64,000 nucleotides of DNA from contig NZ_NSGE01000013.1 of the NCBI RefSeq assembly GCF_002294985.1, positions 62,001-126,000 on the forward strand. The letters run 5' to 3'. A program made the position numbers and the translations under genes. The notes below the pieces were generated by a model that did not search any database, was not told the origin of the DNA, and was given only the letters and a program-made list of their open reading frames with translations. Shown here in pieces: positions 4,573 through 32,088 of this stretch; position 1 is the first letter of the stretch; the number at the start of each line of letters is the position of its first letter. Origin of the DNA: Mesorhizobium sp. WSM3862 (GTDB lineage: Bacteria > Pseudomonadota > Alphaproteobacteria > Rhizobiales > Rhizobiaceae).

Positions 4573-5561
4573 ACGCGCGACTCCTTCCGCACCTGATACT
4601 GGTCGATGAAGACCGCGAGGATCAGCACCGCGCCGATCGCCATCTGCTGGTAGTAGGACTGCACCGCAAGCAGCGTCAGCCCGTTCTGCAGCACGCCCAT
4701 GATCAGCGCGCCGATCATTGTGCCGAGGATCGAGGCGCGGCCGCCGAACAGATTGGTGCCGCCGATGATCGCCGCGGTGATCGCGGTGAGTTCGTAGTTG
4801 ATGCCGGCGGTCGGGTCGCCCGCATTGACGCGGGCGGTGAACAAGAGACCCGCAAGCCCGGCGAGCGCGCCGGAGAGCGTGTAGATGATGCGGCGATGCT
4901 GCTCGACGCGGATGCCGGCGGCGCGCGCCGCGCCCTCGCTGTCGCCGAGCGCCAAAGTGTGGCGGCCGAAGCGCGTATAGGCAAGCACCGTATGCGCGAC
5001 GATCGCCGTCAGCACGAAGATGATGACGGGCATCGGAATGCCGAGCGGCCTCCCTTGCCCGATATAGACGATCTCCGGCGGCAGGCCGTAGATCGCCCTG
5101 CCCTGCGAGATGACGAGCGCCAGCCCGCGCGCAAGGCCCAGCATGCCGAGCGTTACGATGAAGGCGGGCACGAAGGCGCGGGTGACCAGTTGGCCGTTGA
5201 TGTAGCCGGCGATACTTCCGGCCAGAATGCAGGCGATCACCGCGAAAACCGACGGCCAGCCGAGGTTGACGGCGACGAAGGCCCCCGCCACGCCGGCAAG
5301 GCCCATGACCGATCCCAGCGACAGATCGAGCCCACCTGAACCGATGACGAAGGTCGCGGCGATCGCCAGCACGCCGATCGTCGACGTCGCGAGCAGGATG
5401 TTGAGGAAATTGCTGAGCGACAGGAAGAAAGGCGACAAAAGCGCCATCGCCGCGCTCAGCAGCACAAGCACCAGCAGCGACTCCAGCCTGATGTGGAGCC
5501 TCTCGACGGATGTGCGCTGCACCCGAGCCCAAAACCCGGGCTGCGCCGTTTCGGAAGCCAT
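4569..5561 (-). CDS. Sugar ABC transporter permease (RbsC-like)
   Basis: A 330-residue, strongly hydrophobic inner-membrane protein of the BPD_transp_2/RbsC family. Characteristic segments include IGSGGLDLSLGSVMGLAG, FVPAFIVTLGMLGLARG and AAIIGGTNLFGGRASILGT, the last being the conserved cytoplasmic loop that contacts the ATPase. About eight to ten membrane segments can be seen. It lies between the binding-protein gene and the ATPase gene, with a 140-base repeat-rich spacer upstream and a 4-base overlap downstream. The family carries ribose, xylose, allose, inositol and similar sugars; the substrate here is unknown. Confidence 0.9.
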
Positions 5562-5575
5562 GTTTTGACCCTTCT

Positions 5576-5693
5576 GGGTAGGGGATTAGGGGAATAGGGA
5601 AGTCAGCGGGAGAGAGCCGGGTCTGGGAAGTGCAAACCTTCCTCCTCCTACTCCCCTACTGACCTACTCCCCTACTGACCTGCTCCCTACTCC
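5576..5693. repeat. Short tandem repeats and their inverted counterpart between binding-protein and permease genes
   Basis: On the plus strand a 16-base unit CCTACTCCCCTACTGA occurs at 5647-5662 and again, identically, at 5663-5678, followed by a degenerate third copy at 5679-5693. Across the spacer, 5576-5600 carries the opposite-strand version (runs of TAGGGG and TAGGG). The two arms are partly complementary, so the transcript could fold into an imperfect long hairpin just after the binding-protein stop. Such elements between a binding-protein gene and its permease gene often protect the upstream mRNA from 3' decay; that role is inferred. Confidence 0.7.
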
Positions 5694-5701
5694 TTCTCTT
5701 G

Positions 5702-6691
5702 CTACTTCACATATTGCAGCATCGGCTCCTTGCCGGCGTCGAGCACGTCCTTGGTCAGCACCAGGGTGGGCACCGCGATGCTTTCCTCCACCTTCTCGCC
5801 GGCCAGCGCCTTCTTAACGTTCTCGACCGCCTGCTTGCCGACGAGATAAGGAAGCTGCGCGACGGAAGCGTTCAGACGGCCTTCCTTGATCGACTTCACC
5901 GCGTCGACATTGCCGTCCACGCCGATGATCGTCACCTGCTCGCCTTTGCCGGCGGCGTAGACCGATTCCACGGCGCCCAACGCCATGCCGTCGTTGGCGC
6001 AGAAGATGGCAACCAGATCGGGATGCGCCGTCAGTGTGTCGGTGGCGATCGAGGCGGCCTTGCCGCGATCCCAATCGCCCGGCAGCGAGGCGACCACCTC
6101 GAGCCCCGGCGCCAGTTCCTTGAGCTTGTCGGCAAAGCCCTTGGCGCGCTTCTCGCCGGTGATGTTGCCTGAGAGACCCTCGATCACCAGCACCGGACCC
6201 TTGGCGTCCTTGCCAAGCTTGGAGACGAGATATTCGGCCCCTTGCGCACCCGCGGCGACGTTGTCGGAACCGATATGGAAGGTGACCTTGACGCCTTCCT
6301 TGTCGAGAACCGCCTGGTCGAGATTGTTGTCGAGATCGACGATCTTGATGCCGGCATCCTGCGCCGATTTCAGGCAGGGCAAGAGGTTGGTCGAGTTGAT
6401 GGCGGCGGTGATCATCGCCACCGGCTTGCGCTCGAGCATCGTGTTGCACAGGTTAAGCTGCGGCTCGGCCGCCTGGTCGCTTTCGGCCGCCTGCTGGAAG
6501 TATTTCACGCCGGCTTCCTTGGCGCCGTCGGCGACGCCCTGCGCCATCGCGCCCCAGAACGGATTGGCCAAGGTCTTCATCAGCACGCCATATTCGCCGT
6601 CCTCGGCCTTAGCAGTGCCCACCGCGGCAAGGGTAAGCGCCACGCCCAATGCGAGAGTAAATCGATTTATCTTTGTGGAAAGCGATGTCAT
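5702..6691 (-). CDS. Sugar ABC transporter substrate-binding protein (RbsB-like, periplasmic)
   Basis: A 329-residue periplasmic binding protein. Residues 1-27 form a signal peptide (basic start, hydrophobic core LALGVALTLAAVGT, cleavage after AKA). The mature part starts EDGEYGVLMKTLANPFWGAM, the typical ribose/galactose-binding opening, and continues with IFCANDGMALGAVESVYAAG and TIIGVDGNVDAVKSIKEG, which form hinge and ligand-pocket strands of the family. The start at 6691 is supported by GGAGGA about 7 bases upstream. It is the first gene of the transporter operon, after the LacI-type regulator gene. A candidate LacI operator lies inside its signal-peptide codons. Confidence 0.9.
   Translation of the reverse strand: MTSLSTKINRFTLALGVALTLAAVGTAKAEDGEYGVLMKTLANPFWGAMAQGVADGAKEAGVKYFQQAAESDQAAEPQLNLCNTMLERKPVAMITAAINSTNLLPCLKSAQDAGIKIVDLDNNLDQAVLDKEGVKVTFHIGSDNVAAGAQGAEYLVSKLGKDAKGPVLVIEGLSGNITGEKRAKGFADKLKELAPGLEVVASLPGDWDRGKAASIATDTLTAHPDLVAIFCANDGMALGAVESVYAAGKGEQVTIIGVDGNVDAVKSIKEGRLNASVAQLPYLVGKQAVENVKKALAGEKVEESIAVPTLVLTKDVLDAGKEPMLQYVK
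6659..6671 (-). promoter_or_regulatory. Candidate LacI-family operator inside the start of the binding-protein gene
   Basis: On the minus strand the 13-mer GATAAATCGATTT contains the perfect palindrome AAATCGATTT with a central CG, the usual architecture of LacI-family operators. The identical 13-mer occurs at 7888-7900, next to the regulator gene. This copy lies within roughly codons 7-11 of the binding-protein gene, so a bound repressor would block elongation or early initiation. Binding is inferred from the match and the neighbouring LacI gene. Confidence 0.5.
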
Positions 6692-22824: not shown

Positions 22825-23427
22825 ATGTCCGCTGGTTCGTTGACCATCCTTGTTATCGACGAGAACCGCATCCGCGCCTCGATCATCGAGGCCGGATTGC
22901 GGGACGCCGGCCATCGCCATGTCACCGTTGTTCATGACGTGGCCGGCATTGCCAAGCGCATCGCCGAGATCGAGCCGGATGTCATCGTCATCGATCTCGA
23001 AAACCCCAACCGCGACATGCTTGAGAACATGTTCCAGCTTTCGCGAGCAGTGAAACGGCCGATCGCTATGTTCGTCGACCGCTCCGACCGGGCCTCGATC
23101 GAGGCGGCGGTCGAAGCCGGCGTGTCCGCCTATGTGGTCGACGGGCTGAAGAAGGAGCGCATCAAGCCGATTCTCGACATGACGATCAGCCGCTTCAACG
23201 CCTTCTCGCGCATGGCGCGCGAACTGGAGGAGGCGCGCAGCGAGCTCGAGAACCGCAAGGTCGTCGATCGCGCCAAAGGCATATTGATGAAATCGCGCGG
23301 CTTGAGCGAGGAGGCCGCCTACGCGCTTCTGCGCAAGACCGCCATGAACCAGAACCGCAAGATCGCCGACATCGCCCAGAGCCTGGTGACGGCGGCGGGA
23401 TTGCTGGGACCGCTGGAGGGCGAATGA
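22825..23427 (+). CDS. nasT: NasT, ANTAR-domain antitermination response regulator
   Basis: A 200-residue protein with an N-terminal receiver-like domain (LTILVIDENRIRASIIEAGL, DVIVIDLENPNRDML) and a C-terminal ANTAR RNA-binding domain of about 55 residues (VVDRAKGILMKSRGLSEEAA, then YALLRKTAMNQNRKIADIAQ). NasT proteins bind two-hairpin RNA motifs in nitrate-assimilation leaders and prevent termination; NasS holds them inactive when nitrate is absent. AGGAAG lies just before the ATG. The stop overlaps the nasS start by 4 bases. A matching two-hairpin RNA and terminator occur downstream at 24859-24954, which is strong local support. Confidence 0.93.
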   Translation: MSAGSLTILVIDENRIRASIIEAGLRDAGHRHVTVVHDVAGIAKRIAEIEPDVIVIDLENPNRDMLENMFQLSRAVKRPIAMFVDRSDRASIEAAVEAGVSAYVVDGLKKERIKPILDMTISRFNAFSRMARELEEARSELENRKVVDRAKGILMKSRGLSEEAAYALLRKTAMNQNRKIADIAQSLVTAAGLLGPLEGE

Positions 23428-24656
23428 GCAAGACTGCGGCGCACGAGATCACCGCCGGCTTCATGCCGCTCTTCGACAGCGCCGTCCTTGTAGCGGCCGG
23501 CGAGATGGGCTTTGCCGCCCGCGAAGGCATCGAGCTCAAGCTGCATCGCGAGACCTCGTGGGCCAACATCCGAGACCGCATCGCCATCGGCCATTTCGAT
23601 GTGGCACATATGCTCGGGCCGATGCCGCTCGCCTGCAGCCTCGGCCTCACGCCGCTTGCCTCGGAGACCATAGTGCCCTTCTCGCTCGGGCTTGGCGGCA
23701 ACTGCGTCACCGTCTCCAATGTGGTGTGGCAAGGCATGGCGGCGCACGGGGCTGCGCCCGATCTCGATCCGGCGCGCGCCGGGACGGCGCTTGGCGCTCT
23801 GATCCGCGAGCGGGCGGCCGCCGGCCGCGAGCCTTTGCGTTTCGCCGTCGTCCATCCGCATTCCGGGCATAATTACGAGCTGCGCTACTGGCTCGCCGCC
23901 TGCAGCATCGATCCCGACCGCGATGTCGAGATCGTCATCGTGCCGCCGCCCTTCATGGCCGATGCGCTCTCCGCCGGCCGCATCGACGGCTATTGCGTCG
24001 GAGAGCCCTGGAACAGTGCCGCCGTCGCCGCCGGCACCGGCCGCATCGTCACCGTCAAGGCGCTGCTGTGGCGCAACAGCCCGGAAAAGGTGATCGGCGC
24101 GCGCAGAAGCTGGGCCGAGGAAAACCCCGACGCGCTGGCGGCGCTGCTGAGAGCGCTGCATCACTCCGCGCGCTGGTGCCAGGATCCGGTGAACCGCGGC
24201 GCGCTGGCCGCGCTGATGGCCAAGCCTGCGTTCCTCGGGCAGCCGGAGGCGATCCAGATGCCGGCACTCACCGGGCGACTTCAGCTCGGCGGCGGCCCGG
24301 AGCGCAGCGTTGAGGCTTTCTTCCTGCCCTTCGACAAGGCGGCGAACTTTCCCTGGAAGAGCCATGCGCTCTGGTTCTACACGCAGATGGTGCGCTGGGG
24401 ACAATTGCCGCATACGCCGCAAAACCTGGCGATCGCCCGCGACTGCTACCGGCCCGATCTCTACCGCTCGGCGCTGAAGCCGCTCGGCGTGGCCCTGCCC
24501 GGCGCCAACGCCAAAGTGGAAGGCGCGCTGAAGACCGCGACGCCGGTCGGCTCGGCCGGGGCGAGCCTTGTGCTCGGCCCGGACGGATTCTTCGACGGCC
24601 AGATCTTCGATCCCGATCGGATCGATGCTTACATCGCGGCCCAGAATCGCGACTGA
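23424..24656 (+). CDS. nasS: NasS, cytoplasmic nitrate sensor (NrtA/CmpA-like)
   Basis: A 410-residue protein of the NrtA/CmpA nitrate/bicarbonate-binding family (EITAGFMPLFDSAVLVAAGE, LRFAVVHPHSGHNYELRYWL, GRIDGYCVGEPWNSAAV). It lacks a signal peptide or lipoprotein Cys, as expected of the cytoplasmic sensor NasS rather than of a transporter binding protein. In the known system NasS sequesters NasT until nitrate or nitrite binds. The ATGA overlap with nasT (23424-23427) implies coupled translation and a fixed stoichiometry. It is followed by the nitrate operon leader. Confidence 0.92.
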   Translation: MSKTAAHEITAGFMPLFDSAVLVAAGEMGFAAREGIELKLHRETSWANIRDRIAIGHFDVAHMLGPMPLACSLGLTPLASETIVPFSLGLGGNCVTVSNVVWQGMAAHGAAPDLDPARAGTALGALIRERAAAGREPLRFAVVHPHSGHNYELRYWLAACSIDPDRDVEIVIVPPPFMADALSAGRIDGYCVGEPWNSAAVAAGTGRIVTVKALLWRNSPEKVIGARRSWAEENPDALAALLRALHHSARWCQDPVNRGALAALMAKPAFLGQPEAIQMPALTGRLQLGGGPERSVEAFFLPFDKAANFPWKSHALWFYTQMVRWGQLPHTPQNLAIARDCYRPDLYRSALKPLGVALPGANAKVEGALKTATPVGSAGASLVLGPDGFFDGQIFDPDRIDAYIAAQNRD

Positions 24657-24681
24657 TCTTTTGCGCGCCATTCTTGTGCAT

Positions 24682-24698
24682 TGCACAAAATTTGTGCG
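24682..24698. promoter_or_regulatory. Candidate NtrC enhancer site
   Basis: TGCACAAAATTTGTGCG contains GCAC, 7 bases, GTGC (24683-24697), which is the arrangement of NtrC sites (GCAC-N7-GTGC). It lies about 110 bases upstream of a sigma-54-type promoter and just after nasS, a normal enhancer distance. NtrC binding is inferred. Confidence 0.6.
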
Positions 24699-24807
24699 CC
24701 CTGCCCACTCCGTTGATCAACGTTTGACCGTGTCTCGGCCCGGCCGGGCCGGTGCCTGAAGCGCCTACCGCTTTGATTTTTCTGGAAATCCGTCTTCCAC
24801 GCAAAAC

Positions 24808-24823
24808 TGGCACGCTTCGTGCT
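24808..24823 (+). promoter_or_regulatory. Sigma-54 (RpoN) promoter of the nitrate assimilation operon
   Basis: TGGCACGCTTCGTGCT matches the sigma-54 consensus (TGGCACG, 4 bases, TTGCW) with one mismatch. The invariant GG (24809-24810) and GC (24821-24822) are exactly 12 bases apart, as required. Transcription would begin near 24834, so the leader RNA would contain the ANTAR-target hairpins and terminator that follow. With the upstream NtrC-like site, nitrogen limitation should activate it. Confidence 0.72.
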
Positions 24824-24858
24824 TTAAGATAATCGCGCCCCTCGCGGGCAATAGAACA

Positions 24859-24893
24859 GGCGTCCAATGGCGGGCGCCACAGGCAAAGCTGCC
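24859..24893 (+). ncRNA. Two-hairpin ANTAR-target leader RNA (NasT binding element)
   Basis: Hairpin P1 at 24859-24878 has a 7-base-pair stem GGCGTCC/GGGCGCC (one T-G pair) and the hexaloop AATGGC. After three bases, hairpin P2 at 24882-24893 has the short stem GGC/GCC and the hexaloop AAAGCT. Both loops have A at position 1 and G at position 4, the hallmark of RNAs bound by ANTAR proteins. P2 shares bases 24885-24893 with the 5' arm of the terminator, so the two folds exclude each other. NasT encoded upstream is the expected ligand, giving antitermination when nitrate is present. Confidence 0.85.
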
Positions 24894-24954
24894 GCTCAGG
24901 TCGACGCGCGATCCCGGATGTACGGACGCGACAGGCCTGGTCGGCAGCTTTTTT
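24885..24954 (+). terminator. Leader terminator controlled by antitermination
   Basis: AAAGCTGCCG (24885-24894) pairs perfectly with CGGCAGCTTT (24942-24951), a 10-base-pair stem, and T residues continue to 24954. The 47-base interior can fold further. Because the 5' arm is also the loop and 3' arm of ANTAR hairpin P2, NasT binding would prevent this terminator and allow read-through into the nitrate genes. Confidence 0.85.
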
Positions 24955-25014
24955 GTTTTGGACCGAAACGCAATCGAAGGCGCCGATCCCAGGCGGCGCC
25001 GAACGGAGACGACG

Positions 25015-25194
25015 ATGACGAAACGGATCGGAATTGGCGCTTCCCTGAAGGATTTCACCCGCCGCGATTTCCTGGCGAGCAGCATCCTGACGGCGGTGCT
25101 GTTCGCCGCCGCGCTTCTGCTGTTTCCCACCAATCACGACAGAGAGGCCAAGGGTCCGCAAGTGACCGCGCAGGTCCCAGCCTCGGCGCACTGA
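25015..25194 (+). CDS. Small single-span membrane protein with Tat-like N-terminus, unknown function
   Basis: A 59-residue reading frame with GGAGACGACG before its ATG. It shows a twin-arginine-like segment TRRDFLASSILTAVLFAAAL (residues 15-34), with the Arg pair, Phe and Leu of a Tat signal followed by a hydrophobic stretch, and then only about 20 further residues. It is either a genuine small membrane protein or the leftover signal peptide of a lost exported protein such as a nitrate-binding component. It lies after the leader terminator and before the nitrate transporter gene, so it should be expressed with the operon. I do not recognise it as a known family. Confidence 0.55.
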   Translation: MTKRIGIGASLKDFTRRDFLASSILTAVLFAAALLLFPTNHDREAKGPQVTAQVPASAH

Positions 25195-25257
25195 CCGATG
25201 CCGAGCCTTTGATCAACACAACACGCGGTGCCTCCCACGCCGCAAACGGAGCCGACC

Positions 25258-26559
25258 ATGACCGCAAACCTCCAAGCCGCGCCCAGTCAGGACAGTAGCT
25301 CCCGGCAGGCGCTCCTCATCTCCACCATCGCCTTCACCGTCTGCTTCGCGGTGTGGACGATCTTCTCCATCATCGGCGTGCGTATAAAGCAGGAGCTCGG
25401 GCTGAACGAGACCGAGTTCGGATTGCTGGTCGGCACGCCGATCCTCACCGGCTCGCTCGTGCGCATGGTGCTCGGCGTCTGGACCGACCGCTACGGCGGC
25501 AGGCTGGTTTACACCATGACCATGCTCGCGGCCGCGGTCGCGACCTTCCTGCTCGCCTTTGCACATACCTATGAGCAGATGCTGGTGGCGGCGCTCGGCG
25601 TCGGGCTTGCCGGCGGCTCCTTCGCGGTCGGCGTCGCCTATGTCTCGCGCTTTTTCCCCGCGCGCAAACAAGGCACGGCTCTCGGCATCTTCGGCGTTGG
25701 CAATGTCGGCGCCGCGGTCACCAAGTTCCTGGCGCCGCTCGTGCTGATTGCCTGGGGCTGGCAGTCGGTCGCGCTGATCTGGGCCGCGGCGCTGGTTGTC
25801 ATGGCCGGCGTGTTCTGGTTCACGACCAGCGACGATCCGGTCATCCGCGAGCGCCGCGCCGGTAAGGCAGTACCGGCGAGAAGCTTCTGGCAGGAATTCG
25901 CGCCGCTGAAGAACCTGCAGGTCTGGCGCTTCGCCTTCTACTACTTTTTTTCCTTCGGTGCGTTCGTGGCGCTGTCGCTCTGGCTGCCGCGCTATCTGAT
26001 CGGCGTCTATGGCTTCGGCATCGCCACCGCCGGCATGATCGGGGCCGCCTACTCGATCCCCGCAAGCATTTTCCGCGCTTATGGCGGCGTGCTTTCCGAC
26101 CGCATCGGCGCCCGTACCGTGCTCTATTGGACCTTCACCGTCTGTGCCGTCGCGACCCTCGTTCTGTCTCTCCCCTCGGCAGATTACGTCGTGCGCGGCA
26201 TCAGCGGGCCGATCCCGTTCCATGTCGAGATCGGCCCGCTCGCCTTCATCGCCGTCGCCTGCGTGCTCGGCTTCTTCATGAGCCTCGGCAAGGCCGCCGT
26301 CTACAAGCACATCCCCGTCTACTACCCGCAGAGCGTCGGCGCGGTCGGCGGGGTGGTGGGCATGATCGGCGGCCTCGGCGGCTTCATCCTGCCGATCGCT
26401 TTCGGCGCGCTCAACGACCTCACCGGCGTCTGGTCGAGCTGCTTCATGCTGCTCTTCGTCATCGTGGTCTCGTGCCTTCTCTGGATGCACGCCACCATCC
26501 GCCGGATGGAGCGCGCGGCCGCCGTAAAGCCCGCGCCCCTCACCTACGCCGCCGAATAG
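25258..26559 (+). CDS. NarK-type nitrate/nitrite transporter (MFS)
   Basis: A 433-residue major facilitator protein with about 12 membrane segments. Family landmarks are VRIKQELGLNETEFGLLVGT, the loop VLGVWTDRYGGRLVYTM, the nitrate signature region ALGIFGVGNVGAAVTKFLAP, and SVGAVGGVVGMIGGLGGFIL, which is the second nitrate signature with its Gly-rich helix. These are diagnostic of NarK/NasA-type carriers. It brings nitrate (or exchanges nitrate and nitrite) into the cytoplasm for the reductases encoded next. It is 17 bases before nirB. The start at 25258 has GGAG upstream. Confidence 0.92.
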   Translation: MTANLQAAPSQDSSSRQALLISTIAFTVCFAVWTIFSIIGVRIKQELGLNETEFGLLVGTPILTGSLVRMVLGVWTDRYGGRLVYTMTMLAAAVATFLLAFAHTYEQMLVAALGVGLAGGSFAVGVAYVSRFFPARKQGTALGIFGVGNVGAAVTKFLAPLVLIAWGWQSVALIWAAALVVMAGVFWFTTSDDPVIRERRAGKAVPARSFWQEFAPLKNLQVWRFAFYYFFSFGAFVALSLWLPRYLIGVYGFGIATAGMIGAAYSIPASIFRAYGGVLSDRIGARTVLYWTFTVCAVATLVLSLPSADYVVRGISGPIPFHVEIGPLAFIAVACVLGFFMSLGKAAVYKHIPVYYPQSVGAVGGVVGMIGGLGGFILPIAFGALNDLTGVWSSCFMLLFVIVVSCLLWMHATIRRMERAAAVKPAPLTYAAE

Positions 26560-26576: not shown

Positions 26577-29027
26577 ATGAGCGAGAAACTCGTCATCATC
26601 GGCAACGGCATGGCCCCCGGCAGGATGCTCGAGCACCTGCTGGAAGCCGCACCCGACCGCTACGCCGTCACCATCTTCAATGCCGAGCCACGCGTGAACT
26701 ACGACCGCATCATGCTGTCGCCGGTGCTTTCGGGCGAGAAGGAGTTCGAGGAAATCGTCATCCATGGCGACGGCTGGTATATCAAGCACGGCATCACCCT
26801 CTACAAGGGCCACAGGATCGTCGCCATCGACCGCGAAGCGAGGACCGTCACCTCGGACCACGGCGTGGCCGAAGGCTACGACAGGCTGATCATCGCCACC
26901 GGCTCGGTGCCGTTCATCATCCCGGTGCCGGGCAAGGACTTGCCGGGCGTGCTCAGCTACCGCGATCTCGACGATGTCAACGCCATGCTGCCTGCCGCGC
27001 AGTCGCGCGCCAAGGCGATCGTCATCGGCGGCGGCTTGCTCGGCCTGGAAGCGGCGGCCGGGCTTAAAGAGCGCGGCATGGACGTGACCGTCCTCCACGT
27101 CATGCCGACACTGATGGAGCGCCAGCTCGATCCGGCTGCCGGCTACCTGCTGCAGAAGGCCGTCGAGGCGCGCGGCATCAAGGTCATGACCAAGGCCAAC
27201 ACCAAGGCCATTGTCGGCAATGGCAAGGTCGAGGGCGTCGAGCTCATGGACGGCACGATCATTCCGGCGACGCTGGTCGTGATGGCGGTCGGCATCCGCC
27301 CGAATATCGCGCTGGCCAAGGACGCAGGGCTGGAGGTCAATCGCGGGATCGTCGTCGACGACCGCATGCAGACATCCGATCCGGCGATCATGGCGCTCGG
27401 CGAATGCGCCGAGGTCGGCGGCCATGTCTACGGGTTGGTTGCGCCACTCTACGAGATGGCCCGCGTGGCGGCAGCCGGGCTGGCGAACGGCGAGGACAGG
27501 CGCTTCGTCCATTCCGACACGCCGACCAAGCTCAAGGTCACCGGCATCGACCTTTATTCGCTCGGCGACTTTGCCGACGGCGACGACCGCGAGGAGATCA
27601 TCCTGCGCGACGCATCCGCCGGCATCTACAAGCGGGTCGTGCTGCAGGACAACCGCATCATCGGCACGGTGCTGTTCGGCGAGACCGGCGACGGCGCCTG
27701 GTTCAACGATTTGAAGAAGAAGGCGACCGACATCTCGGAGATGCGCGACACGCTGATCTTCGGCCAGGCATTCCAGGGAGGCGCTTCCTCGGACCCTTTG
27801 GCGGCCGTTGCGGCACTGGCGGATGATGCGGAAATCTGCGGCTGCAACGGCGTCTGCAAGGGAAAGATCACCGGCGCGATCACCGGCAAAGGGCTGACCG
27901 GGCTCGACGACGTGCGCGCCCACACCAAGGCCTCGGCTTCGTGCGGCTCGTGCACGGGTCTCGTCGAACAACTCCTGAAACTCACGCTGGGCGAGGCCTA
28001 CAATCCGGCGGCCGTGCAGCCCATGTGCGGCTGCACGAGCCTCGGTCATGACGACGTGCGGCGCCTGATCAAGGCGAAGGGGTTGAAAACGATACCGGCC
28101 ATCATGCAGGAGCTCGAATGGAAGACCTCCTGCGGCTGCGCGAAGTGCCGGCCCGCGCTCAACTACTATCTGGTCTGCGATTGGCCGGACCAATATGCCG
28201 ACGACTATCAGTCGCGCTTCATCAACGAGCGCGTCCATGCCAACATCCAGAAGGACGGCACCTATTCGGTCGTGCCGCGCATGTGGGGCGGCGTCACCAG
28301 CGCCGGTGAATTGCGCGCCATCGCCGACGTGGTCGACAAGTTCGGCATCCCGACGGTGAAGGTGACCGGCGGCCAGCGCATCGACATGCTTGGCATCCGC
28401 AAGGAGGACTTGCCGGCGGTGTGGGCCGATCTCGGCAAGGCCGGCTTCGTCTCGGGTCATGCCTATGCCAAGGGCCTGCGCACGGTGAAGACCTGCGTCG
28501 GCTCCGACTGGTGCCGTTTCGGCACCCAGGATTCGACGGGGCTGGGCATCCGCATCGAGAAGTTCATGTGGGGTTCCTGGACCCCGGCCAAGGTGAAGAT
28601 GGCGGTCTCGGGATGCCCGCGCAATTGCGCCGAAGCGACCTGCAAGGATGTCGGCGTGGTCTGCGTCGATTCTGGCTACGAGATCCACTTCGCTGGCGCC
28701 GCCGGCCTCGACATCAAGGGCACCGAAGTGCTCGGCCTGGTGAAGACCGAGGACGAAGCGCTGGAGGTGATCGTGGCGCTTGTCCAGATGTATCGCGAGC
28801 AGGCCCGCTACCTCGAGCGCATCTACAAATGGGCCAAGCGCGTCGGTACCGCCGAGATCAAAAAGCAGATCCTGGATGACGTGGAGAAGCGCCGCGCTTA
28901 TTTCGAGCGCTTCGTCTTTTCGCAGAAATTCGCGCAGGTCGACCCGTGGTCCGAACGCGTCTCCGGCAAGGACAAGCACGAGTTCCGGCCGCTGGCCTCG
29001 GTCGGGTTCGCCGAGGCGGCCGAGTGA
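26577..29027 (+). CDS. nirB: Assimilatory nitrite reductase (NADH), large subunit
   Basis: An 816-residue NirB. It starts with an FAD/NAD oxidoreductase domain (LVIIGNGMAPGRMLEHLLEA, AIVIGGGLLGLEAAAGLKER, IMALGECAEVGG), followed by two Cys-rich BFD-type [2Fe-2S] segments (ICGCNGVCKGKITGAITGKG, ASCGSCTGLVEQLL; and CGCAKCRPALNYYLVCDWPD). The C-terminal siroheme/[4Fe-4S] half follows, with ligands in TCVGSDWCRFGTQDS (C-x5-C) and VSGCPRNCAEATCKDVG (C-x3-C). It reduces nitrite to ammonium with six electrons in the cytoplasm. It is the second main gene of the nas operon and acts with NirD. No siroheme synthase gene is in the window. Confidence 0.96.
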   Translation: MSEKLVIIGNGMAPGRMLEHLLEAAPDRYAVTIFNAEPRVNYDRIMLSPVLSGEKEFEEIVIHGDGWYIKHGITLYKGHRIVAIDREARTVTSDHGVAEGYDRLIIATGSVPFIIPVPGKDLPGVLSYRDLDDVNAMLPAAQSRAKAIVIGGGLLGLEAAAGLKERGMDVTVLHVMPTLMERQLDPAAGYLLQKAVEARGIKVMTKANTKAIVGNGKVEGVELMDGTIIPATLVVMAVGIRPNIALAKDAGLEVNRGIVVDDRMQTSDPAIMALGECAEVGGHVYGLVAPLYEMARVAAAGLANGEDRRFVHSDTPTKLKVTGIDLYSLGDFADGDDREEIILRDASAGIYKRVVLQDNRIIGTVLFGETGDGAWFNDLKKKATDISEMRDTLIFGQAFQGGASSDPLAAVAALADDAEICGCNGVCKGKITGAITGKGLTGLDDVRAHTKASASCGSCTGLVEQLLKLTLGEAYNPAAVQPMCGCTSLGHDDVRRLIKAKGLKTIPAIMQELEWKTSCGCAKCRPALNYYLVCDWPDQYADDYQSRFINERVHANIQKDGTYSVVPRMWGGVTSAGELRAIADVVDKFGIPTVKVTGGQRIDMLGIRKEDLPAVWADLGKAGFVSGHAYAKGLRTVKTCVGSDWCRFGTQDSTGLGIRIEKFMWGSWTPAKVKMAVSGCPRNCAEATCKDVGVVCVDSGYEIHFAGAAGLDIKGTEVLGLVKTEDEALEVIVALVQMYREQARYLERIYKWAKRVGTAEIKKQILDDVEKRRAYFERFVFSQKFAQVDPWSERVSGKDKHEFRPLASVGFAEAAE

Positions 29028-29085
29028 TGGAGAAGTTCGCGCCATCCTGGACGCTCGCCTATCAAGCAAACACGGGAGTGTCCCA

Positions 29086-29415
29086 ATGAACTGGATCGCA
29101 ATCGGCTCCGTTTCCGACGTCCCTCGCCGCGGCGCGCGTTGCGTGGCCACCCCGCAAGGCAAGATCGCTGTTTTCCGCACCGCGGATGACAAGGTCTTCG
29201 CCATCGAAGACCATTGCCCGCACAAAGGCGGGCCGCTCAGCCAGGGCATCGTCCATGGCGCGGCGGTGACCTGCCCGCTGCACAATTGGGTGATCTCGCT
29301 GGAGACCGGCAAGGCGCTCGGCGCCGACGAAGGCTCGGTTAGGACGATCCCGGTCAGGATCGAAGGCGAACGGCTGTTCATTGCGCTCGAACCGTTGGCC
29401 TCGAAAGCGGCCTGA
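29086..29415 (+). CDS. nirD: Nitrite reductase small subunit (Rieske-type NirD)
   Basis: A 109-residue Rieske-fold protein. Both ligand pairs are present: C44-P-H46 in EDHCPHKGGPLSQG and C63-P-L-H66 in VTCPLHNWVISLETGKAL, so a [2Fe-2S] cluster could bind. E. coli NirD lacks these ligands; this longer-known Rieske form has them. It partners NirB in nitrite reduction. The start at 29086 matches the beginning of NirD homologues (MNWIAIGSV). Its stop is 3 bases before the nasA start. Confidence 0.92.
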   Translation: MNWIAIGSVSDVPRRGARCVATPQGKIAVFRTADDKVFAIEDHCPHKGGPLSQGIVHGAAVTCPLHNWVISLETGKALGADEGSVRTIPVRIEGERLFIALEPLASKAA

Positions 29416-29418
29416 GCC

Positions 29419-32088
29419 ATGGAAGAAGCACGCGAGGTGAGGACCACCTGCCCCTATTGTGGGGTGGGGTGCGGCGTGGTGGCCGAGATCGCTGCGGGTG
29501 GCAAGGCAACCGTCCGCGGCGATCCCGAGCACCCGGCCAATTTTGGCCGCCTTTGCTCTAAGGGTGCCGCGCTTGCCGAGACGCTCGGCCTCGATGGCCG
29601 CTTGCTTCAGCCGGAAATCCAAGGCAGGCAGACGAGTTGGGACGAAGCGCTCGACCTCGTCGCCGCGAAATTCTCGGACGCGATTGCCGAGCATGGGCCG
29701 GACTCGGTCGCCTTCTATGTCTCCGGCCAGTTGCTTACCGAAGATTACTACGTCGCCAACAAGCTGATGAAAGGCTTCATCGGCTCGGGCAATATCGATA
29801 CCAATTCGCGGCTGTGCATGGCGTCGTCGGTCGCCGGCCACCGCCGCGCTTTCGGCGAGGACATCGTTCCCGGTGTCTATGAGGATTTCGAGCACGCCGA
29901 TCTGATCGTGCTCACCGGCTCCAACACCGCATGGTGCCACCCCGTGCTCTACCAGCGCATGCTCGCGGCGCAGCGCGAACGCGGAACCAGGATCGTCGTC
30001 ATCGATCCGCGCCGCACCGCCACGGCCGACGAATGCGACCTGCACCTGGCGCTTGATCCGGGCACGGACGTGCTCTTGTTCAACGGCCTTCTGGCGCATC
30101 TCGTCCAGAGCGGAAAGATCGACGCGGATTTCATCCGCACCAGCACATCGGGCTTCGAAGCCGCTGCCGCGCTGGCCGGTGCCGATGCGCCGTCGGTCGC
30201 GCGCGTCGCAAAAGGCTGCGGGCTGGTGGCCACGGATGTCCAGGCCTTTTATGAGATCTTCGCCGGCACCGAACGGACGGTCACCGTCTACAGCCAGGGC
30301 GTCAACCAGTCGGCACATGGAACCGACAAGGTCAGCGCCATCCTCAACTGCCACCTCGCCACCGGCCGCATTGGCAAGCCAGGCATGGGGCCGTTCTCGG
30401 TCACGGGCCAGCCGAACGCCATGGGCGGCCGCGAGGTGGGGGGCCTCGCCAACCAACTTGCCGCGCACATGGACTTCGCGGATCAGGCCGCTGTCGAGCG
30501 GGTCTCCCGCTTCTGGAAGGCGCCCGGAATCGCGCGACGCGGCGGGCTGAAGGCCGTGGACATGTTCCAGGCGGTTGCCGACGGCCGCATCAAGGCGCTG
30601 TGGATCATGGGCACTAATCCCGCGGTGAGCATGCCGGACGCGTCGCGCGTGCGCGCCGCCCTGTCCAAATGCGATTTCGTCGCGGTTTCGGATGTGACCC
30701 GCACCGACACCACGCGCTATGCCGACGTGCTGCTGCCCGCCGCTGCCTGGGGCGAGAAGGACGGCACGGTCACAAATTCGGAACGGCGCCTCTCGCGTCA
30801 GCGGCCGTTCGTGCCGTCGCCGGGCGAAGTGAAAGCCGATTGGCGCATCATCTGCGAGGTCGCCGCGCGCATGGGCTTCGGCGATGCTTTTGCCTACCAG
30901 ACGCCGGCGGAAATCTTCCGCGAGCATGCCGCGCTCTCGGCTTTCGAGAACAATGGGGGGCGCTTGTTCGATCTGGGCGGCCTGACGGACCTCAGCGATG
31001 CGGGCTATGCCGGCTTCGCGCCGCGCCACTGGCCGGCACCAGAATCGCGCGAGTACCAGACGAGATTGTTTGCGGACGGTCGCTTCCCGACACCGGACGG
31101 CCGTGCGCGTTTCGTCCCGGTGCGGCAGGAGGCGACGGCGTTCACCGTCGATGCGGAGTATCCGCTTGCGCTGAACACGGGCCGGTTGCGCGACCAATGG
31201 CACACCATGACGCGTACCGGCACCGTGCCGCGCCTGATGGCCAACGCTCCGGAACCGGCGGTCGACCTCAATCCGGCGGATGCGGCCGCTCACCAGCTCA
31301 AGGATGGTGACCTTGCCCATCTGTCGACGCGCTTCGGTTTCGTGCGCGCGAGAGTACGTGTGACCAACGCGCAGCTGCGCGGCCATGCCTTCATGCCCAT
31401 GCATTGGAGCGGCCAGTTCGCGGCCAGGGCCGCCACCGGCCTGCTGTCCTCGCCTGTCACCGACCCGCATTCCGGCCAGCCGGAACTGAAGCATGTCCCA
31501 GTCAGAATCGTGCGCGAAAACACTGGGTGGGCCGGTGTGCTCATCACGCGGCGCGACCTCAGGCCGACCGGTTTCGTCCACTGGAGCCGCTACGCGGTCG
31601 AAGGCGGCTGGGTCTACGAACTGACCGGGACCGAGCCGCCGGACCAGGGCATTCTTCTGGCGCGCAAGCTGCTCGGCGTTCAACGGCAGGATCAACTGCT
31701 CGAATACACCGATCGCCGCGGGCTCGCCTATCGCGCCGCTGCGATCGACGAAGGCGGCGCCATGGCTGAGGCCGTGCTGGTCGCCGCTCCAGACCAGTTG
31801 CCGACGCGGGACTGGCTGGTCTCGCTGCTGGCCACCCGCCAGCCGCTGTCGCCAGCCGATCGCCATGCGCTTCTTTCCGGGCGTTCGCCAGCGCCGATGC
31901 CCGCCATCGGGCGGGTCGTGTGCTCATGCTTCCACATCGGCGTCAACCAGCTCGCTTCGGCGGTCGCTGCGGGTTGCGACAGTCTGGAGGCGATCGGCTC
32001 GACGCTGCGCGCCGGCACCAACTGCGGTTCGTGCCGCTCGGAGATAAGGGCGATCATCGACGCCCGGCACGTTCAGGCCGCCGAGTGA
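29419..32088 (+). CDS. nasA: Assimilatory nitrate reductase catalytic subunit
   Basis: An 889-residue molybdopterin (bis-MGD) oxidoreductase. The N-terminus carries a [4Fe-4S] motif TTCPYCGVGCGVVAEI and GRLCSKGAAL (Cys 11, 14, 18 and about 46). Mo-cofactor domains follow (NIDTNSRLCMASSVAGHRRA, with Cys as the likely Mo ligand; SQGVNQSAHGTDKVSAILNC; TGQPNAMGGREVGGLANQLA) and a C-terminal dinucleotide-binding domain (LALNTGRLRDQWHTMTRTG). The last 60 residues are a BFD-type [2Fe-2S] domain (VVCSCFHIGVNQLASAV, GTNCGSCRSEIRAII). This order is typical of cytoplasmic NasA/NarB-type enzymes, reducing nitrate to nitrite. It is the final gene of the operon. Confidence 0.95.
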   Translation: MEEAREVRTTCPYCGVGCGVVAEIAAGGKATVRGDPEHPANFGRLCSKGAALAETLGLDGRLLQPEIQGRQTSWDEALDLVAAKFSDAIAEHGPDSVAFYVSGQLLTEDYYVANKLMKGFIGSGNIDTNSRLCMASSVAGHRRAFGEDIVPGVYEDFEHADLIVLTGSNTAWCHPVLYQRMLAAQRERGTRIVVIDPRRTATADECDLHLALDPGTDVLLFNGLLAHLVQSGKIDADFIRTSTSGFEAAAALAGADAPSVARVAKGCGLVATDVQAFYEIFAGTERTVTVYSQGVNQSAHGTDKVSAILNCHLATGRIGKPGMGPFSVTGQPNAMGGREVGGLANQLAAHMDFADQAAVERVSRFWKAPGIARRGGLKAVDMFQAVADGRIKALWIMGTNPAVSMPDASRVRAALSKCDFVAVSDVTRTDTTRYADVLLPAAAWGEKDGTVTNSERRLSRQRPFVPSPGEVKADWRIICEVAARMGFGDAFAYQTPAEIFREHAALSAFENNGGRLFDLGGLTDLSDAGYAGFAPRHWPAPESREYQTRLFADGRFPTPDGRARFVPVRQEATAFTVDAEYPLALNTGRLRDQWHTMTRTGTVPRLMANAPEPAVDLNPADAAAHQLKDGDLAHLSTRFGFVRARVRVTNAQLRGHAFMPMHWSGQFAARAATGLLSSPVTDPHSGQPELKHVPVRIVRENTGWAGVLITRRDLRPTGFVHWSRYAVEGGWVYELTGTEPPDQGILLARKLLGVQRQDQLLEYTDRRGLAYRAAAIDEGGAMAEAVLVAAPDQLPTRDWLVSLLATRQPLSPADRHALLSGRSPAPMPAIGRVVCSCFHIGVNQLASAVAAGCDSLEAIGSTLRAGTNCGSCRSEIRAIIDARHVQAAE

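Follow-up and report, generated by a model that had tools for sequence, protein, structure and literature searches.

The question raised by this locus is whether one short leader may combine two signals, nitrogen limitation and nitrate, ahead of an operon for nitrate assimilation in Mesorhizobium sp. WSM3862. The leader comprises 358 bases (24657-25014) between nasS and an open reading frame (ORF) of 59 codons, on contig C5 of a 6.18-Mb genome; all coordinates refer to the window, which is the whole stretch of 64,000 nucleotides that was analysed. The initial annotation had placed NasT-NasS genes just upstream and, within the leader, an NtrC-like site, a sigma-54 promoter, two hexaloop hairpins and a terminator overlapping the second hairpin, and had proposed that both signals meet on one transcript. 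All of these elements are present at the positions given to them, and the proposed combination, a functional reading drawn from letters and homologues, is supported by the elements, by their conservation and by the regulators that the genome encodes.

Gene content of the locus

The genes lie on the forward strand in the order nasT, nasS, leader, 59-codon ORF, narK-type transporter, nirB, nirD and molybdopterin oxidoreductase. The nasT product (22825-23427) combines a response-regulator receiver domain (Pfam PF00072, 7.8e-9) with an ANTAR RNA-binding domain (PF03861, 5e-22) and has sequence matches to 1s8n, 6wsh and 4akk, which we take to be the solved ANTAR proteins Rv1626, EutV and NasR. The start of nasS (23424-24656) overlaps the nasT stop by 4 bases, and its product, an NrtA-like nitrate sensor (Pfam NMT1_2, 1.4e-71), shares up to 96% identity with proteins from Mesorhizobium. 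The gene pair by which a NasS-NasT system is recognised, a receiver-ANTAR protein and an NrtA-like sensor encoded side by side, is thereby present. Upstream of nasT no sigma-54 site was found, and the best NtrC-like site there agrees with the consensus at 10 of 14 positions.

Beyond the small ORF (25015-25194) follow a nitrate/nitrite transporter of the major facilitator superfamily (25258-26559; MFS_1, and TIGR00886 at 5.7e-64, which is below the curated cut-off), nirB (26577-29027; TIGR02374, 901.5 bits), nirD (29026-29415; TIGR02378, 2e-30) and a molybdopterin oxidoreductase with a C-terminal Fer2_BFD domain (29419-32088). The last of these reaches no NCBIfam curated cut-off among the best 25 families listed, and it is probably an assimilatory nitrate reductase of the nasA/nasC type.

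The regulators that the leader would call for are encoded in the genome. A single NtrC exceeds the curated cut-off, at 698 bits, and rpoN is matched by two full-length sequences (G000:C29:104813-105292 and G000:C2:79008-79487) and a partial third. Of the two ANTAR matches, one is nasT itself and the other, at C25:496189, is weaker (32.9 bits).

A sigma-54 promoter with upstream NtrC-like sites

Promoters of the sigma-54 type follow the consensus TGGCAC-N5-TTGCW, with the GG and GC dinucleotides 10 bases apart, and NtrC enhancers are palindromes resembling TGCACYANNNTRGTGCA that lie upstream of the promoter. The forward-strand element at 24808-24823 (TGGCACGCTTCGTGCT, that is TGGCACG and GTGCT separated by cttc) agrees with the -24/-12 consensus at 11 of 12 positions, has its GG at 24809-24810 and its GC at 24821-24822, and predicts a transcription start at 24834. 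A scan of 24640-25020 for sigma-70 promoters gave none.

The NtrC-like site of the initial annotation (24682-24698, TGCACAAAATTTGTGCG) agrees with the consensus at 11 of 14 positions and is centred near -144; directly 5′ of it lies a second site of equal score that had gone unmentioned (24664-24680, CGCGCCATTCTTGTGCA, 11 of 14 against the same consensus, centre near -162), no strand being assigned to either. When 2000 stretches of 151 bases were drawn at random from the window, 6 reached a score of 11. The position of the first site is conserved among relatives, and the second site is conserved in the Mesorhizobium rows of the alignments. Wider support comes from the 27 promoter-bearing loci retrieved with the covariance model R1 described below, in 21 of which the best NtrC-like site falls at -138 to -146 or -158 to -166 (mean 3.5 and maximum 9 in 300 shuffles) and in 19 of which it scores at least 10 (shuffled mean 4.2, maximum 10). 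The column-average score over these loci is less clear than the best sites and peaks at -65 and -122 as well. The NasS-adjacent leaders that have a sigma-54 site number 47, counting the window; the best NtrC-like site scores 10 or more in 30 of them and less in 17.

Two ANTAR-type hairpins and an overlapping terminator

Dual-hairpin RNA targets of ANTAR proteins are characterised by two hairpins of at least 3 bp with a linker of variable length between them, by hexaloops with A in the first and G in the fourth position (A1/G4), by overlap of the second hairpin (P2) with a terminator, and by binding of an ANTAR protein (Ramesh et al. 2012, PMC3369931). On the forward strand of the window, P1 (24859-24878) has a 7-bp stem, ggcgtcc with gggcgcc, closing the loop AATGGC, and after a linker of 3 nt P2 (24882-24893) has a 3-bp stem, ggc with gcc, closing the loop AAAGCT, so that both loops carry A1 and G4. 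The intrinsic terminator (24885-24959) consists of a 10-bp stem between AAAGCTGCCG (24885-24894) and CGGCAGCTTT (24942-24951), an inner stem and a T tract, TTTGTTTT. The terminator stem begins with nine bases that in P2 make up the loop AAAGCU and the 3′ arm, and these nine are common to the two structures. By analogy with such RNAs, the leader RNA would be the target of the NasT protein encoded next door.

The 24834-24965 transcript folds at -64.1 kcal/mol, compared with -51.4 +/- 4.1 for shuffled sequences (z -3.1). Folded unaided, P2 adopts a 4-bp stem with a tetraloop, closed through an A1-U6 pair, rather than the 3-bp hexaloop form. A generic terminator scan, which takes loops of 3-8 only, missed the leader terminator and listed two other sites. 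The complete arrangement occurs once on the forward strand of the window and not on the reverse strand. Markov controls did not yield it, whether drawn as 40 order-1 sequences, each 64 kb long, or as 20,000 versions of the leader with its 358 bases; the two hairpins and the terminator by themselves turned up once among the 40 sequences and in 2 of the 20,000 leaders. At gathering threshold Rfam gives no match anywhere in the window, and a match to ar35 at 24909-24929 (14.6 bits, E 1.7) was dismissed as chance. Most Mesorhizobium rows show strong conservation at the tip of the terminator hairpin (24905-24935, near CGCGATCCCGGATGTACGGACGCG), which would seem to be more than termination needs.

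Conservation beside nasS

The initial annotation had staked its reading on the conservation of the hairpins and of the P2/terminator overlap in related genomes. In 80 loci, for each of which 560 bases 3′ of a NasS match were searched for a mechanical pattern of P1, P2 and overlapping terminator with A1/G4 demanded, all three parts are kept in 45. The pattern is absent from the other 35, some of which have the element further off or visible only by the R1 model. In three loci (L015, L016, L052) the element lies 1.1-1.25 kb past the NasS match, compared with about 0.2 kb in the window, and here nasS and the leader probably have something between them.

The window and the 45 loci give 46 pattern-positive leaders, in 41 of which the P2 loop and the terminator arm begin at the same base. 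From these an alignment of 41 rows was made (A2, leaving out L007, L036, L045, L047 and L050), and from it one of 36 rows (A3, leaving out also L006, L009, L010, L043 and L071); a further alignment of 18 rows (A1) was picked after the pattern scan. A1 and G4 are invariant in the 41 aligned leaders, an invariance that the selecting pattern itself demanded, and pairing percentages are likewise inflated because these rows were selected for having stems. Compensatory changes are not automatic despite this selection. Both sides of the pair have changed in 4 of the 7 pairs of P1 and 1 of the 3 of P2 (5 of 10 together), which amounts to 20 cells compared with a shuffled mean of 3.1 and was matched in none of 500 shuffles; the number of such pairs was matched in 5 of 500. 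The contribution of P2 is a single pair, G-C to A-U in 5 rows, its remaining 2 pairs being invariant. In the terminator stem 4 of 10 pairs have changed on both sides, and for P1 and terminator together the count is 43 cells (shuffled mean 7.7; 0 of 500). The related-leader alignment that had been suggested as a check thus yields compensatory changes in P1, P2 and terminator, and since P1/P2 and the terminator both covary, there is support for each of two structures that draw on the same letters and exclude one another.

A covariance model, R1, was built from P1 and P2 alone (36 rows, the window among them), and the window scores 67.3 bits. At E 1e-6 it has matches in 40 of 151 genomes of the family, some of which may be the same species as NasS loci, and none in the other 111. 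Thirty loci from the 41 family matches were inspected for features that the model does not contain. L128 is the window; of the remaining 29, 27 have a sigma-54 site (at least 9 of 12 positions) and 28 a terminator that overlaps P2. The exceptions are L144 and L169, in which no sigma-54 site is recognisable, and L161, which has no P2 by the criteria used. Among 398 genomes of the phylum, all 14 that are R1-positive encode an ANTAR protein.

Within the reach of this model, the leader is the one predicted target of NasT in its own genome. With E allowed up to 10, R1 has 42 other matches in the genome, the highest at 23.1 bits, and nine that were inspected show no sigma-54 site. Six of these have an A1/G4 hairpin and were rejected for want of a terminator, and L133 and L136 for want of an A1/G4 hairpin; L129 has a terminator-like pairing, but it lies opposite another frame among ORFs that by eye are phage-tail-like, and was rejected too.

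A two-input model and its rivals

Taken together, these observations make us strongly confident that the leader unites two inputs ahead of narK-nirBD-nasA, initiation by phosphorylated NtrC (NtrC~P) with sigma-54 and nitrate-controlled antitermination by NasT. Under nitrogen limitation, NtrC~P bound about 144 and 162 bases upstream would activate the RNA polymerase-sigma54 holoenzyme at 24808-24823, giving RNA from about 24834. When nitrate is absent, NasS would keep NasT, P2 would be unheld, and the AAAGCUGCCG arm would pair with CGGCAGCUUU, so that transcription would terminate near 24955. Nitrate or nitrite would free NasT, whose ANTAR domains, as a dimer, would grip the A1/G4 loops of P1 and P2; with P2 held, the 5′ arm of the terminator would be sequestered and polymerase would read through into the small ORF, narK, nirB, nirD and nasA. 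The first step of this model is drawn from the sites, their position and the genes; in the second, the anatomy and covariation of the RNA are observed and the action of the protein is extrapolated from homologues; the third is deduced.

For steps that sequence does not reach, published homologues provide precedents. In P. denitrificans nitrate or nitrite is reported to dissociate NasS-NasT, and NasT to bind the nasA leader RNA (PMC3795266). A narK-lacZ fusion in B. japonicum is described as being induced about 5-fold by nitrate, with expression that can no longer be detected when nasT is missing and becomes constitutive when nasS is missing (PMC4724949), and for EutV, A1 and G4 of both loops and the pairing of the P1 stem are stated to matter (PMC3369931). 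A counter-case is reported from B. diazoefficiens, where, although hairpins are predicted, a nasT mutant shows more narK-bjgb-flp expression under denitrifying conditions, which counts against a universal rule (PMC6759348).

A first rival concerns the identity of the activator. Another sigma-54 activator, such as NtrX, or some other factor could act on the upstream palindrome, leaving termination and antitermination by NasT unchanged. This is unlikely, yet it gains some substance from a second NtrC-like protein encoded near ntrC (C1:97340, 382.7 bits), from further NtrC-like activators elsewhere in the genome, and from the palindrome TTGTGCATTGCACAA, which is readable in more ways than one; against it stand the preferred positions occupied by the best matches to the NtrC consensus and the statement that the NalA promoter is NtrC-dependent (PMC12830290).

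Two further explanations were considered. A terminator 3′ of nasS would be unremarkable, and P2 is weak by itself, so the structure might be a plain, unregulated intrinsic terminator of nasS with incidental hairpins. The covariation of P1 over the 41 selected leaders speaks against this, as does the sigma-54 start between nasS and the terminator, whose own transcript would then always be stopped, and we regard it as very improbable. Attenuation by a leader peptide is more improbable still, to the point of being scarcely credible: an AUG in the P1 loop does open a frame of 143 codons (24867-25298), but many relatives have AACGAC or a similar loop that lacks an AUG, and for this reason the peptide was rejected. 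The two-input model is retained as the preferred reading. It indicates that, in Mesorhizobium and in roughly one in four of the family genomes sampled, a single short transcript brings together the signals for nitrogen limitation and nitrate, and with it the leader offers a ready-made reporter for a genus of legume symbionts.

Relation to known systems

The initial annotation had thought the compact combination worth documenting as such, and here it was anticipated: a review attributes NtrC/sigma-54 initiation and NasT antitermination on one leader to the NalA/nirBD system, drawing on P. putida and P. aeruginosa papers (PMC12830290), so the combination is not new as a kind. As described there, NalA would share with the window a sigma-54/NtrC start, NasT antitermination, a nirBD operon and NasS as nitrate sensor (PMC12830290). 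For the NalA system an effect of c-di-GMP on NasT is also described. The Paracoccus denitrificans nasTS-nasABGHC locus likewise has nasTS upstream of the operon and leader hairpins in the intergenic region (PMC5424462, PMC3795266). There, NasT is reported to bind the leader RNA (PMC3795266), as the window NasT would be expected to do; an NtrC site was recognised at the nasT promoter, whereas in the window it lies in the operon's own leader, and for the nasA leader these papers speak of a site still to be identified (PMC5424462, PMC3795266). The Klebsiella nasF leader also controls a nitrate operon by ANTAR antitermination through hexaloop hairpins, but its regulator NasR is described as a fusion of sensor and ANTAR domain, with no NasS-NasT (PMC3369931, PMC5424462). 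A literature search for NasT antitermination in Mesorhizobium found nothing on the subject, as judged by title. The leader is thus ordinary in mechanism and sound in detail, and it is useful as a lead towards identifying the Rfam family RF03032.

The narK RNA, RF03032

Reportedly, the RF03032 family was described in a paper in NAR in 2017; the literature searched, outside which that description lay, contained no paper found to name "narK RNA" or RF03032. With cmscan the full length of the model (1-72) aligns to 24832-24895 of the window at 18.2 bits (E 0.32 in 371 bases, 2.3 in 2.7 kb), below the gathering score of 43.2. This score is not significant alone, and the link to RF03032 is made because the anatomy agrees. 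In the same genome the listed match, at C25:402220, scores higher than the leader (23.4 bits), and the gathering score is reached in none of 61 genomes of the genus. Sub-threshold matches in 51 of these 61 (E up to 1, best 0.0067) were set aside as noise, since three control genomes matched too and the match listed for the window's own genome is not this leader.

The RF03032 consensus begins with GGCaCAgcucUUGCU, which is a -24/-12 sigma-54 element, continues with a hairpin of loop AACGGC and ends in ACGACAAAGACGUCGC, which can form GAC-AAAGAC-GUC and is not annotated as paired. At E 1e-4 the family occurs in 19 of 398 genomes of the phylum, 16 of the 19 being above threshold, and anatomy was counted in 30 loci of 31 sites. 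GG-N10-GC stands at the start of the model in 29 of these 30 loci, and the base just 5′ of it is T in all 30, completing TGG. P1 has at least 4 unbroken pairs in 24, a P2 stem of 3 bp or more closing an A1/G4 loop is seen in 25 (the exceptions are L102, L119, L120, L121 and L122), a terminator that overlaps P2 and extends past the 3′ end of the model is also found in 25, and a rough NtrC pattern lies upstream in 3 only. R1, which derives from NasS-adjacent leaders only, matches 10 of the 30 at full length and in register, 7 of them at E below 0.01, and leaves 20 unmatched.

An ANTAR protein is encoded in all 19 carrier genomes, compared with 155 of the 398 overall (hypergeometric 8e-9, a figure that ignores kinship, 16 of the 19 carriers belonging to one family). 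At least 21 of the 31 sites lie within 2.5 kb of a same-strand ANTAR match, at least 12 of them downstream of it and at least 9 about 1.7 kb upstream of it; for the remaining 10 the ANTAR matches listed are further off or on other contigs. Eight proteins encoded downstream of RF03032 were tested: four are NarK over the curated cut-off, one is a molybdopterin oxidoreductase resembling nitrate reductase and below every cut-off, and three have no NCBIfam match at 1e-20 and by eye start like NrtA/NasS.

RF03032 and the window leader appear to be the same arrangement. Shared are the order of sigma-54 promoter, P1 with A1/G4 loop, P2 of the CAAAG type, overlapping terminator and nitrate genes, and an encoded ANTAR protein; they differ in the predicted spacing from start or promoter to P1, which is 1-14 bases in RF03032 loci and about 25 in the window, and probably because of this longer spacer Rfam misses the alphaproteobacterial leaders. 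It is highly probable that positions 1-15 of RF03032 are sigma-54 promoter DNA, that the RNA begins near position 26, that the annotated hairpin is the ANTAR P1 and the 3′ end an unannotated P2 overlapping a terminator, and that the family forms with the alphaproteobacterial leaders one "sigma-54 plus NasT" class of nitrate leaders, which in family f44 seemingly also stands before nasS-nasT. The window leader, outside RF03032 by the Rfam threshold, may be expected to work like a member. In this way RF03032 would have its boundaries corrected and would gain a protein partner and a function that can be tested, and the case carries the warning that promoter DNA can form part of an "RNA" consensus.

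In eight loci (L114, L117, L118, L122, L124-L127) the narK RNA precedes an ORF whose beginning resembles NrtA/NasS, and an ANTAR match follows some 1.7 kb further downstream of the RNA. This suggests that in their family nasS-nasT may stand under an ANTAR leader of their own.

The small ORF downstream of the leader

The 59-residue product of the ORF at 25015-25194 (forward strand) looks like a Tat signal peptide from an NrtA-like protein of which the remainder is absent. In two relatives (L005, L009) a similar N-terminus runs on into a protein of 438 residues. In M. jarvisii (L012:4559-4816) an nrtA-like frame 3′ of the leader ends at 85 residues and NasS-like sequence goes on (4801-5844); this nrtA-like gene looks frameshifted. 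The ORF in the window points to an exchange between nitrate transport of the ABC and the MFS type. The ORF is open in 8 Mesorhizobium copies 5′ of narK, the window included, with a median pN/pS of 0.48 over 28 pairs; it is perhaps a retained membrane microprotein.
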